DNA of 64,000 bases. It comes from Brevibacillus humidisoli (lineage in GTDB: Bacteria; Bacillota; Bacilli; Brevibacillales; Brevibacillaceae). Shown here in pieces: positions 5,141 through 8,852 of the stretch. The notes beneath the pieces are model-generated. The model did no database searches, was not told the origin of the DNA, and saw nothing but the letters and a program-made list of their open reading frames with translations. The stretch lies in contig NZ_CP087263.1 in the NCBI RefSeq assembly GCF_020923435.1, positions 1,941,970 through 2,005,969 of the forward strand. The letters are read 5' to 3'. The position numbers and the translations under genes are program-made. Position 1 is the stretch's first letter; every line of letters begins with the position of its first letter.

Positions 5141-5614
5141 TTACTCTACGTTGATGATCTTGATCGCCTCAACCTTATACGGGAGGTGGTTGCTGTAATT
5201 CAGTTCTACGCGGATCTCATGCTCTCCTTTTGGAAGCTGTTTGATTTTGAATTCCGGTTCGTAGAGCATCTGCCAAAACCTGCCGTCCAAGTATAGGTGA
5301 GCATGCCCCTCTCCATGCACCGGATCAGCACTTTCCGTACTGTCTTCCCTCACAAACCGGAAGTTTTCCGTCAGCATCTTTACGTATGCCTCGTCGCCTT
5401 CCAACGTGACATCGAGGCTCAGCTCCGGTTTGGGGGAACCGTACAACTCGTTGTTGGCAGATGCGGGGACGGCCTCACTGCCTAGGCCCTGCAGATCGGA
5501 TTGGGAGCTGTCCAGCGAATTGCTGAACAGCAGCACGAGCCCGGCGATCAATACCAACAGGAAAACGGCAGCGCCAATCACTACATTGCGTATGCTGATC
5601 ACAATCACTCTCAT
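5141..5614 (-). CDS. Membrane-anchored extracytoplasmic protein of unknown function
   Basis: The product has 157 residues. One hydrophobic segment near residues 10-30 (VVIGAAVFLLVLIAGLVLLF) is followed by a polar linker and an exported domain. That domain contains HGEGHAHLYLDGRFWQMLYE and ends in a beta-rich stretch, KGEHEIRVELNYSNHLPYKV. The HGEGHAHLYLDG pattern looks like small immunoglobulin-like or cupredoxin-like envelope domains, and the clustered histidines might bind a metal, but I do not recognise a named family. The start ATG has AAGGGAGAG seven bases upstream. It follows yajQ after 79 bp, and a terminator follows it. Confidence 0.75.
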   Translation of the reverse strand: MRVIVISIRNVVIGAAVFLLVLIAGLVLLFSNSLDSSQSDLQGLGSEAVPASANNELYGSPKPELSLDVTLEGDEAYVKMLTENFRFVREDSTESADPVHGEGHAHLYLDGRFWQMLYEPEFKIKQLPKGEHEIRVELNYSNHLPYKVEAIKIINVE

Positions 5615-5693: not shown

Positions 5694-6185
5694 TTATCGG
5701 TAGTTGATAAACTGTACATCGATCGGCAAATCGGCCTGTTTGATGGCCGTAATCACCTGTTGCAGATCATCCTTGTTTTTGCCGGTTACACGGAGCTGAT
5801 CATCTTGGATCTGAGACTTTACCTTTAAGCCAGTCTCCTTGATCAGGGCATTGATCTTCTTGGCATTTTCCTTGTCAATCCCCTGAACCAGCTTCACCCT
5901 TTGGCGTACGGTACCGCCTGCTGCGGGCTCGATTTTGCCGTACTCCAGATTTTTAATGGAGACGTCTCGTTTAATCAGTTTGCCAAGCAAGACGTCTTTC
6001 AGCTGTGCCAGTTTGTACTCATCGTCAGAGAGAAGTACGATTTCTTCTTTTTCCAGACTGATCGAACTTTTGCTGCCTTTGAAATCAAAGCGGTTCTCGA
6101 TTTCCTTGGTAGCAGTGTGAATGGCGTTGGTCACTTCCGCCAAATCCACCTTGGATACAATATCAAACGAACTTTCCTTACTCAT
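5694..6185 (-). CDS. yajQ: YajQ-family nucleotide-binding protein
   Basis: YajQ proteins are small two-domain cytoplasmic proteins. Family members bind nucleotides or RNA, and some bind cyclic di-GMP. The 163-residue product begins [20 protein letters not shown] and includes [19 protein letters not shown], both typical, and ends in [13 protein letters not shown] longer frame reaches 6203, but the ATG at 6185 gives the family N-terminus and follows a GAGGTG-type site. The gene lies 57 bp after the DUF350 gene with no obvious terminator between, so it may be read from the same transcript. Confidence 0.93.
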
Positions 6186-6242: not shown

Positions 6243-6641
6243 TTACCAAATCAAGCTAGGGCTGATGACATTGGAGACGGCAATCGCAAATACAGCAAAC
6301 AGCAGCGCCGGCTCAATCTCACCTGCTTCAATCAACCGGGAGAACCGCTGCTTGTAAAAAACTTTGGCGGCAATCCACTCTACCAGCAGAAACAAGACGA
6401 TCTGCCAGAGAACAGCGACGGCTCCAAACAATAGAAAGTCGGGGATGCTGACACTGTTGGCAATCGCTGAATACAAGTTGTTGGAGATGGCGTATATCTG
6501 ACCGCCAAAAACGATCACGGAAGCCCGGTTTTTCTGTTTAATCAATCGCCATTCATTGTGCGGAGTAACAAGCGGGATCAGAAAGATGCTGACAACCAAC
6601 AGAATAAAGCCTACAAACGAATACAGCAAAAACGCTGCCAT
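6243..6641 (-). CDS. DUF350 integral membrane protein (YjfL-like)
   Basis: The product has 132 residues and about four predicted membrane helices: FLLYSFVGFILLVVSIFLIP, a helix around residues 40-60, FLLFGAVAVLWQIVLFLLVE and ALLFAVFAIAVSNVIS. The pattern matches the DUF350 family, which includes E. coli YjfL. In many bacteria DUF350 genes lie beside glutathionylspermidine-synthase-like ATP-grasp genes, as here, with 45 bp between. The biochemical role is not established. It is the last clear member of the four-gene operon starting at 8784. Confidence 0.85.
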   Translation of the reverse strand: MAAFLLYSFVGFILLVVSIFLIPLVTPHNEWRLIKQKNRASVIVFGGQIYAISNNLYSAIANSVSIPDFLLFGAVAVLWQIVLFLLVEWIAAKVFYKQRFSRLIEAGEIEPALLFAVFAIAVSNVISPSLIW

Positions 6642-6686
6642 GCAAAACTCCTCCTCTTCATCATCTCAAACAAAAATAGAAATACG

Positions 6687-7943
6687 TTATCGCTCCATCG
6701 CGGCAGGGGTGAAATAGGCCAGGTTGCCGGTGATTTTGCCACCTACACGCGGAAGCAAACCGGCGAAGCGGCCGCCGATACAAAAAGAGCCCAGCAGCAA
6801 ATGACCGGCAAAATCGCCTTCTTCGGTCGACAGCACCACATCCGGCAATTCTACCCGCTGTTGATACAGCATAGGTTGATCCCAGTACGCTTGCTCCCTG
6901 TCCCGCTCCTCTACTTCTCCTACTGCCGAATAGAGGGTAACTGCGCCCCCTTCCCGGCCAAAAAACGGTTTAGACACATAAGCGATCCCGGAACGCAGAA
7001 AAGAATCTGGCTCAAATGCGCTAGGTAGAAAATGTTGGCGGATAAACTGACGTTCGGTATCGTCAAATAGCGGGTGGCGCAATTGGGCCAACTCCCAGAT
7101 CAGTGCCTGCATCCCTTTTGATTGCGGAATCAGTGCTTGCGGAGGGGAAATGGCTGCTACTTTTTGTTCGGCAATCAAATGAATCAGATATTCACCTGTC
7201 GCAAACCCTGTCTCATCCTGATCGTACGGCAGGTGCTCCCACGGGTACAAGCGATACCAGATGGAGATCTTCTCGTCCAGTGCGTACAACCCGTCTGCCT
7301 CGACCCGCAGCTGTTCGAGAGGAACAAAGCTGCCTAGGTTGCCGGCCTGTGCTCGCGTGTATTCGACCGTACCGCGATCTTCCACGTGCTCTCCGGCGGC
7401 ACTATAGACCAACGGACCGGTAAAACCTCTCTGACGGTAGTACGCACACAGAGCTTGGATCGCTTTGCGAATCGCTTCGTTCATCGCGGACGAAGGGTTA
7501 GCATAGGTTGAAAAGCGACGGATAACCGCTTCCGACACATAGGCCGTTTCAACGACTCCGGTCGGGGTATCGGCATTGTATTCGAGGATCTGTACGCCGT
7601 TCTCTGAGATACTCAGATCGAAGCGGGTGATCCCATCGTACGGCACATGTTCCCGCACAATCTCACACAAGGCTGGAGATATTCCCAACTGATGCACCAG
7701 ATACTCATCCGGTACTTCTTGCTGAGTAAATCGGACCGCTTTTCGTATTAATCGATATGCCTCTTCCGTGACTTCGGCGATCTGCTGCACACGCTGGCGT
7801 GAGAGCAACGTGAATGCCGGGACGAGATACTCCTTTCCATACATGCGATCCCAACTGCACCAGTCGCGTGTGGGTCCAAACACCTCGTCGTGGGAAAGAC
7901 CGATCGGGACCAGTTTAACCCCCGAAACTACGTGATCCGCCAC
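6687..7943 (-). CDS. Glutathionylspermidine synthase-like ATP-grasp ligase (YgiC/YjfC-like)
   Basis: Proteins of this family carry the ATP-grasp C-N ligase domain of glutathionylspermidine synthase but lack its amidase domain, and are predicted to join an amine to a peptide or other carboxylate. The 418-residue product has ENGVQILEYNADTPTGVVET, the WYRLYPWEHL segment, the nucleotide-binding stretch AYVSKPFFGREGGAV and the C-terminal LLGSFCIGGRFAGLLPR. The longest frame starts at GTG 7970, but AAGGGGG stands eight bases before the GTG at 7943, which I prefer. The gene overlaps the upstream lipoprotein gene by 29 bp, so translation is probably coupled. The true substrate is unknown. Confidence 0.88.
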   Translation of the reverse strand: MADHVVSGVKLVPIGLSHDEVFGPTRDWCSWDRMYGKEYLVPAFTLLSRQRVQQIAEVTEEAYRLIRKAVRFTQQEVPDEYLVHQLGISPALCEIVREHVPYDGITRFDLSISENGVQILEYNADTPTGVVETAYVSEAVIRRFSTYANPSSAMNEAIRKAIQALCAYYRQRGFTGPLVYSAAGEHVEDRGTVEYTRAQAGNLGSFVPLEQLRVEADGLYALDEKISIWYRLYPWEHLPYDQDETGFATGEYLIHLIAEQKVAAISPPQALIPQSKGMQALIWELAQLRHPLFDDTERQFIRQHFLPSAFEPDSFLRSGIAYVSKPFFGREGGAVTLYSAVGEVEERDREQAYWDQPMLYQQRVELPDVVLSTEEGDFAGHLLLGSFCIGGRFAGLLPRVGGKITGNLAYFTPAAMER

Positions 7944-8322
7944 TGCCAATGCCCCCTTTGGAGGAGACACTTCTGCTCACTTGCGATTTATAGAAACTAG
8001 ATGAAGCCGATACCTTCTGCGATTTGTTCTTGTAGCCTTTTTTTACGTAAAAACTACTGTCCTCATCATCGCAATCGTACTCCAGTCCGTTTGTTTCCAC
8101 CTCCCATTGGCATTCATCGTAAGTCGTCAACTCTGGTTCATCCTCGGCGCAGCCAGCCAGTGCAGCCGTCAAAGAAATCACACCAGTGACAGCCAATGCC
8201 TTCCGGTGAAAGGGAACCTTGCTTATGCTGGATTGCAGCTTTTGCTCCGATGCCGTTGTTTCTGCGGAAAGTTGGTTACACTGTTTTGCAAAAGTTTGGT
8301 TGACCCATTCCTTCCATTCCAT
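7915..8322 (-). CDS. YgiB/YjfM-like small lipoprotein
   Basis: The product has 135 residues. About 40 polar residues precede a hydrophobic stretch ending in LTAALAGC, a lipobox-like motif. An acidic segment (CAEDEPELTTYDECQWEVET) and a Ser/Gly-rich tail ending GGIGSGGSRSFGG follow. A delayed lipobox and a Gly/Ser-rich C-terminus are hallmarks of E. coli YgiB and YjfM (DUF1190), which are encoded beside YgiC and YjfC, so this is the likely counterpart. Four cysteines follow the hydrophobic stretch. The ATG at 8322 has GGAGTGA at correct spacing. The exposed tail is a plausible substrate of the neighbouring ligase, which is inference only. Confidence 0.75.
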   Translation of the reverse strand: MEWKEWVNQTFAKQCNQLSAETTASEQKLQSSISKVPFHRKALAVTGVISLTAALAGCAEDEPELTTYDECQWEVETNGLEYDCDDEDSSFYVKKGYKNKSQKVSASSSFYKSQVSRSVSSKGGIGSGGSRSFGG

Positions 8323-8352
8323 GTTGTTCACTCCTTTCTTCACGTAATTCCA

Positions 8353-8784
8353 TCACTCCGGTTCGACAAAAATTAGGACAACGCCTCTGTCCTCATCGAG
8401 AATCGTGTAATTCAGCCGATAATCTCGTCCAACCAGTACCGTATAGTGATCAAGCAGTCGTGTCACCAGCTGGGCAAACCCCTGAAAGCTCTGCGTCGTC
8501 ACCAAACGAGAGGTGCCGCTGGAGACATCGTAGTACTCGATGGTGTAGCCATACGCACGAACCGTTTGCTGCGGCAGCAAGCTGCGATGTTTTTCCGACG
8601 GCTCCAGATAAACCACTTCCGTCTCTTCCCAGGCGTTTGAGGTATGTTCATAGAGTACGCCCTCAAACATACTTGCGTCTACCAGTTTGCGGACAAGCAG
8701 TTCCTCAAGGGATACTTCTGCCGTGCGAATGACCGGTGACTCCTCCACTTGTCGGCGATCTAGCTGTTTGTATTGTAGCAGCAT
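8353..8784 (-). CDS. Hypothetical protein, first gene of the YgiB/YgiC/DUF350-like operon
   Basis: The product has 143 residues, is soluble and acidic, and lacks a signal peptide or membrane segment. It starts MLLQYKQLDRRQVEESPVIR and ends YTILDEDRGVVLIFVEPE, with an alternating pattern suggesting a mainly beta fold. I do not recognise a family. The ATG is preceded by GGAGAGGAGGGG. It lies 30 bp upstream of the YgiB-like gene and is the first gene after an ECF-type promoter, so it probably acts with the ligase and membrane protein that follow. Confidence 0.75.
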   Translation of the reverse strand: MLLQYKQLDRRQVEESPVIRTAEVSLEELLVRKLVDASMFEGVLYEHTSNAWEETEVVYLEPSEKHRSLLPQQTVRAYGYTIEYYDVSSGTSRLVTTQSFQGFAQLVTRLLDHYTVLVGRDYRLNYTILDEDRGVVLIFVEPE

Positions 8785-8823
8785 CCGTTCCCCTCCTCTC
8801 CACCGACATACACGTTACCATTC

Positions 8824-8852
8824 TAATACGAATGGACGAAAGATTGGTTGCT
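8824..8852 (-). promoter_or_regulatory. Candidate ECF sigma promoter for the 8784-6243 operon
   Basis: Reading the minus strand, AGCAAC (CAAC at 8850-8847) is followed by exactly 16 bases and then CGTATTA (8830-8824). This matches the ECF layout of AAC, 16 bases, CGT known for Bacillus SigW-type factors. It also resembles the site upstream of the ECF sigma gene in this window (53075-53100). Initiation would fall about 33 bases before the ATG at 8784. Confidence 0.6.

Follow-up and report, generated by a model that had tools for sequence, protein, structure and literature searches.

Organization of the four-gene cassette

The window analysed here is a stretch of 64,000 nucleotides of Brevibacillus humidisoli (contig NZ_CP087263.1), in which open reading frame calls placed four adjacent genes head to tail on the minus strand, between positions 6243 and 8784, as had been claimed by a first-pass annotation of this DNA. 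These genes encode, in order, a 143-aa protein designated U1 (8353..8784), a 135-aa lipoprotein T (7915..8322), a putative ligase L (6687..7943) and a 132-aa membrane protein D (6243..6641). An ECF-type promoter-like element, AGCAAC-N16-CGTA, is found on the same strand at 8827..8852.

The lipobox of T, LAGC, ends at Cys58, which agrees with the delayed lipobox described earlier, and is followed by an acidic segment holding two cysteines and by a Gly/Ser-rich tail. The C-terminal part of this tail, SSKGGIGSGGSRSFGG (7918..7965, minus strand), contains a GIG motif and a terminal Gly-Gly, and is the predicted substrate of the ligase. The designation of T as YgiB-like holds for its architecture and tail and fails for its sequence family, since no Pfam match was obtained at E<=1, DUF1190 included, which places T outside the DUF1190 family. 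As in the DUF1190 lipoproteins, a lipobox and a GxG tail with a Gly/Ser end occur beside a PF03738 ligase, a likeness that is an analogy and not a homology.

The lipoprotein and ligase genes overlap, as had been noticed. If L starts at the GTG at 7943, which is preceded by AAAGGGGGC, the ligase has 418 aa and the overlap comprises 29 nt; with the alternative GTG at 7970, it has 427 aa and the overlap comprises 56 nt. The later start agrees with the low confidence (pLDDT 36) of the AlphaFold model for the N-terminal residues of the longer reading frame. AAAGGGGG, which probably serves L as ribosome-binding site, falls within the codons for K-G-G of the T tail, so that translation of L is probably coupled to that of T.

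The last gene of the cassette encodes a DUF350 (YjfL-like) protein with four predicted TM segments, whose Pfam match (PF03994; E=3e-26, 92.6 bits, cut-off 26) bears out its first identification. Downstream of the cassette are found genes for a YajQ-family protein (5694-6179) and a 157-aa membrane-anchored protein with no assigned family (5141-5614). A Pfam search of the cassette and three flanking genes revealed neither PspA nor its dyad partner, and no PADLOC match linked the cassette to a defence system.

U1 had been called unfamiliar, and it has no convincing family in Pfam, NCBIfam, PHROG or PADLOC. Its AlphaFold model (mean pLDDT 94.5) is composed of a β-rich module of ~70 aa duplicated internally, in which the order strand-strand-helix-strand-strand-strand occurs twice, and the two halves align to each other with an hhalign probability of 98.7. 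The hallmark residues of the U1 family are E28, E83, D130 and R133. Its identification as DUF4178, YjfK or YjfI was rejected, with hhalign probabilities of 1.1, 0.4 and 0.2, respectively. Among solved structures, the best match reached a Z of 4.8, and the scattered beta-grasp-like matches (protein L, glutamine synthetase N-domains) were too weak for a fold assignment, while a viral structure library returned short single-module proteins at E 0.004 or worse. Our guess is that U1 is a cytosolic accessory protein or regulator.

Conservation and promoter of the cassette

Named genomes were scanned with the Bacillota ligase alignment, which biased the scan to close relatives of this ligase and returned 80 related Bacillota loci. 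Six-frame searches with family profiles placed all four components no more than 3.5 kb apart in 72 of these 80 loci. The order was U-T-L-D (U for U1, D for DUF350) in 50 loci and T-D-U-L in 21, besides others; in the latter 21, the tail gene is still linked to the ligase with DUF350 and U1 lying between them. The co-occurrence of the four genes is far from chance, in loci that, because they share phylogeny, do not count as independent events. Nearer relatives retain the complete cassette. In one of these, from a Brevibacillus sp. (L042), the identity to the window is 73% for U1, 62% for the lipoprotein, 74% for the ligase and 89% for DUF350, and the lipoprotein tail ends in TKGGIGGGASRSFGG; a yajQ-like gene lies downstream of this cassette too.

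Diverged PF03738 relatives from other Bacillota (L019, L020, L025 and L030-L036) were left out as different subfamilies with no tail partner. In L019, L020 and L025, two PF03738-like domains are fused in a protein of 820-860 aa, which is followed by a 204-215 aa protein with no Gly/Ser tail. The L030-L036 relatives, of ~440 aa, adjoin a second protein of ~410-440 aa in several Bacillota genomes.

Control by an ECF sigma factor had been proposed from the window alone, whose element (8852-8827) is by itself an imperfect match. The DNA upstream of U1 in relatives repeatedly contains such elements, for example GGGAAACC...CGTA or GGCAACC...CGTA, and the AAC...CGTA pattern with 15-17 nt spacing taken as the sign of an ECF (SigW-like) regulon was found, the window copy itself being imperfect. 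The motif occurs in 16/37 U1-first cassettes vs 3/419 control genes searched with the same pattern, a statistic somewhat overstated because the pattern was defined after inspecting the relatives. It was found in none of 22 cassettes with DUF350 before U1, and a TGAAAC-N16-CGTA element precedes T in several T-first cassettes. This recurrence supports an ECF-type control of the cassette, as judged from promoter sequences. An ordinary neutral cluster of four genes with no joint pathway would suit the lack of a known biochemical role for U1 and DUF350; such a reading is nevertheless highly improbable in view of the retention of all four genes across most loci, the two main gene orders, the recurrent ECF motif, and a lipoprotein-ligase pair that is kept in distant lineages and phages.

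Identity of the ligase

L matches PF03738 (YgiC/YjfC family) with E=3e-49 (168.6 bits, cut-off 29.3), and its AlphaFold model (pLDDT 93.0) is nearest in fold to E. coli YjfC 7UK6 (Foldseek E=1.1e-26, TMt 0.82), then to GspS and YgiC. The first-pass annotation had staked its proposal on a ligase of the ATP-grasp/glutathionylspermidine synthase family and on four genes that co-occur in relatives, and both were found. In the alignment, R116, D118, E130, N132, K285, K334, Q370 and R408 of L correspond to R316, D318, E330, N332, K498, K533, Q568 and R598 of GspS, which we take to be its catalytic and ATP/Mg ligands. The acidic pair E391/E392 of GspS, presumably its spermidine site, is kept in L as E197/D198, of which E197 is invariant and D198 nearly invariant. 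GspS activates the carboxylate of the C-terminal glycine in glutathione. The glutathione-site residues of GspS are not kept in L, and neither is D610 in the alignment, which we assume to be a spermidine contact.

By its sequence and modelled fold, L is a putative ATP-grasp peptide-polyamine ligase of the YgiC/YjfC family. The enterobacterial counterparts had been described as of unknown function, and for the enzyme this should be amended: YgiC and YjfC are reported to ligate peptides to spermidine (Pederick 2023, cited in PMC12568646), so the enzyme function is not wholly unknown, and the E. coli annotation already labels them peptide-spermidine ligases.

A tail rule shared by the partner lipoproteins

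Across phyla, the lipoproteins that accompany these ligases have little in common beyond the lipobox, except a rule for the tail, in which G-[FIYWLMV]-G, usually placed 6-12 residues before the end, is followed, most often after 7-11 residues, by a C-terminal Gly or Ser. The tail motif was found in 83/498 same-strand neighbours of ligases vs 1/390 distant ORFs. A G/S end is seen in 54 of 55 non-redundant tails, where 53% is expected from tail composition, and in 49 the motif lies 5-12 residues short of the C-terminus, where shuffles give 2.9; three less biased tests weigh more than these counts, because many of the 55 tails were chosen by the same pattern. In the first of these, with selection independent of the motif, a G/S end was found for 56/57 lipobox genes lying immediately upstream of a ligase and for 0/8 of the other lipobox genes in those loci. 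In the second, the rule held for 9/9 proteins, a set made up of annotated DUF1190 neighbours from plasmids together with YgiB and YjfM of E. coli. It was also found in cyanobacterial partners (L125, L126) and in an Arthrobacter partner (L131), and it recurs in proteobacteria.

The terminal residues vary among Gly-Gly, Ser-Gly, Ser and one Ala (L127), and five partners (L084, L092, L093, L095 and L097) have a Gly-Gly end with no GxG motif. Given these varying ends and the few partners with no GxG, the motif may be less than a strict recognition signal. A strict C-terminal Gly-Gly rule was rejected, since in many tails the end is Ser-Gly or Ser.

The tail had been put forward as a candidate for modification by the ligase, and the comparative tail rule lends support to that suggestion. 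It could be argued, on the model of GspS, the closest well-studied relative, which works on a tripeptide, that the ligase yields a small soluble peptide-polyamine conjugate and that the tail is an unmodified flexible linker, docking or sensing element, since Ser/Gly-rich linkers are frequent on surface proteins. Such a linker would not require a fixed end, yet nearly all tails end in G/S, both in the set partly selected by the rule and in the motif-independent test; moreover, the glutathione-site residues are lost in L, and the cassettes were not seen to include a gene for a small peptide. We consider this alternative rather unlikely.

Phage-borne lipoproteins and ligases

For the third of the less biased tests, seven phage loci with a ligase were picked regardless of their tails, and in six of them a nearby upstream lipobox protein has a Gly/Ser end, accompanied by the motif in five of these six. 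The lipoprotein of phage Lu11 ends in GGGGRSSAHGGSSS; in phage DSS3_VP1, no tailed lipobox protein was found near the ligase. In Achromobacter phage Motura (L153, 803-3628), three consecutive genes encode homospermidine synthase, a lipoprotein with the tail VRGGFGSTGSSFSAGG and the ligase.

A YgiB-like lipoprotein is also present in many enterobacterial phages (about 130 phage records). In two of them (L157 1501-2118 and L158 1501-2007), RGGFG...GG is kept and no ligase is adjacent within the roughly 3.5 kb examined in each, suggesting that these phages use the host enzyme.

Polyamine supply and the DUF350 partner

The genome from which the window was taken contains homologues of speD (AdoMet decarboxylase) and speE (spermidine synthase). 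The frequency of AdoMet decarboxylase in ligase genomes (18/21) barely exceeds the baseline (117/149), and this co-occurrence was set aside as uninformative. Three ligase genomes, two of them near-complete, gave no AdoMet decarboxylase match. In two genomes with no such match, G060 and G257, the spermidine synthase matches were weak as well, and the ligases (L010 and L013) are variants followed by an additional 220-aa lipoprotein.

These two genomes, together with the near-constant presence of DUF350, might be taken to indicate that the tail is joined to an amine other than a polyamine, such as an amino acid, phosphatidylethanolamine, a protein lysine (e.g., on DUF350) or a cell-wall amine, so that the modification would anchor or crosslink the protein instead of giving it a cationic cap. 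We regard this possibility as rather improbable, considering that the acidic pair, whose GspS counterpart we take to be spermidine-binding, is kept, that the nearest relatives are peptide-spermidine ligases and that a homospermidine synthase is coupled to the lipoprotein-ligase pair in one phage.

In Mesobacillus and some Brevibacillus, K+ channel-like genes are neighbours of the cassette (L091 6206-7234; L061 6736-7503), as is an ion channel gene in Rhizobium (L123 3245-4300), which hints at an ion-related role. Polyamines block K+ channels, and any link between this property and the cassette is speculation.

Proposed mechanism and significance

Altogether, we give an even chance to the reading in which the cassette is an ECF-controlled envelope module whose ligase amidates the C-terminus of the lipoprotein tail with a polyamine before or during export. 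In this mechanism, the ligase would recognize the flexible T tail by its G-[hydrophobic]-G motif, which lies a few residues before the end, and would activate the carboxylate of the terminal Gly or Ser at the expense of ATP. The activated tail would then be joined through an amide bond to a polyamine, with spermidine as the most likely one, in the way that GspS amidates the glycine of glutathione. Ligation would take place in the cytosol, where U1 would act as an accessory protein. Once exported and anchored, the lipoprotein would display a capped, cationic tail outside the cell. Together with DUF350, and in some relatives perhaps also with K+ channels, it may protect the membrane or sense it. 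The topology is the main difficulty of tail amidation: the ligase is cytosolic and needs ATP and the tail is predicted to be extracytoplasmic, which leaves only the time before or during export for the reaction.

More broadly, C-terminal polyaminylation of envelope lipoproteins may be a widespread bacterial modification, in which ligases cap a G-[hydrophobic]-G...Gly/Ser tag with spermidine or homospermidine and which phage-borne tagged lipoproteins, with or without a ligase of their own, exploit; we advance this only tentatively, at somewhat less than even chances. To our knowledge, no natural substrate is known for YgiC and YjfC, which ligate peptides to spermidine in vitro, and a tail rule common to several phyla and phages provides a concrete candidate substrate for this enzyme family. 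If the proposal is true, the missing natural target of YgiC/YjfC-type ligases would be identified, a ubiquitin-like chemistry of the C-terminal carboxylate, in which a polyamine supplies the amine, would enter bacterial envelope stress biology, and the recurrent grouping of DUF350, polyamine genes and envelope lipoproteins would be explained.

Comparison with known systems

The E. coli pairs YgiB-YgiC and YjfM-YjfC (PDB 7UK6, 7UK7, 7UK8, 7UKA) share with the cassette the ligase family, the fold, the catalytic residues and a lipoprotein partner, which in YgiB and YjfM carries an RGG[FY]G...GG tail (-SSRSMGG and -ARGHWGG, respectively). The E. coli yjf operon contains DUF350, as the cassette does. 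However, ligase identity to YgiC/YjfC is about 25%, the lipoprotein is not a DUF1190 protein, and, relative to the yjf operon, the cassette has no PspA, YjfI (DUF2170) or YjfK (DUF2491), holds U1 in the accessory place and is preceded by an ECF-type promoter.

The PSP-linked ATP-grasp/DUF350/DUF1190 operons (Ravi et al. 2024, PMC11237479) have in common with the cassette the ligase, DUF350, a lipoprotein, a K+ channel in some relatives and the setting of envelope stress. They differ by the presence of the PspA dyad and DUF2491; U1 is not described in that work, and in the passages covered modification of the tail is not proposed.

GspS (E. coli gss) and L share the fold, the ATP/Mg residues, the putative spermidine acids E391/E392 and the chemistry of a C-terminal Gly carboxylate, whereas in L the acyl substrate site is altered, the amidase domain is missing and the gene partner is a lipoprotein. 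In the conjugation of SUMO and ubiquitin to spermidine (PMC12270671), a C-terminal Gly-Gly carboxylate is joined to spermidine, as proposed here, but through eukaryotic E1/E2 chemistry and proteins unrelated to the cassette.

The enzyme chemistry and the DUF350 linkage are already published. In the literature covered, which was mostly open access, no paper was found naming the lipoprotein tail as ligase substrate, and the 2009 amidoligase survey of the Aravind group might hold a similar idea. What appears to be new is the tail as substrate, the U1 family with its duplicated fold, the cassette of Bacillota together with the ECF motif before it, and a tail rule that extends across phyla and into phages.
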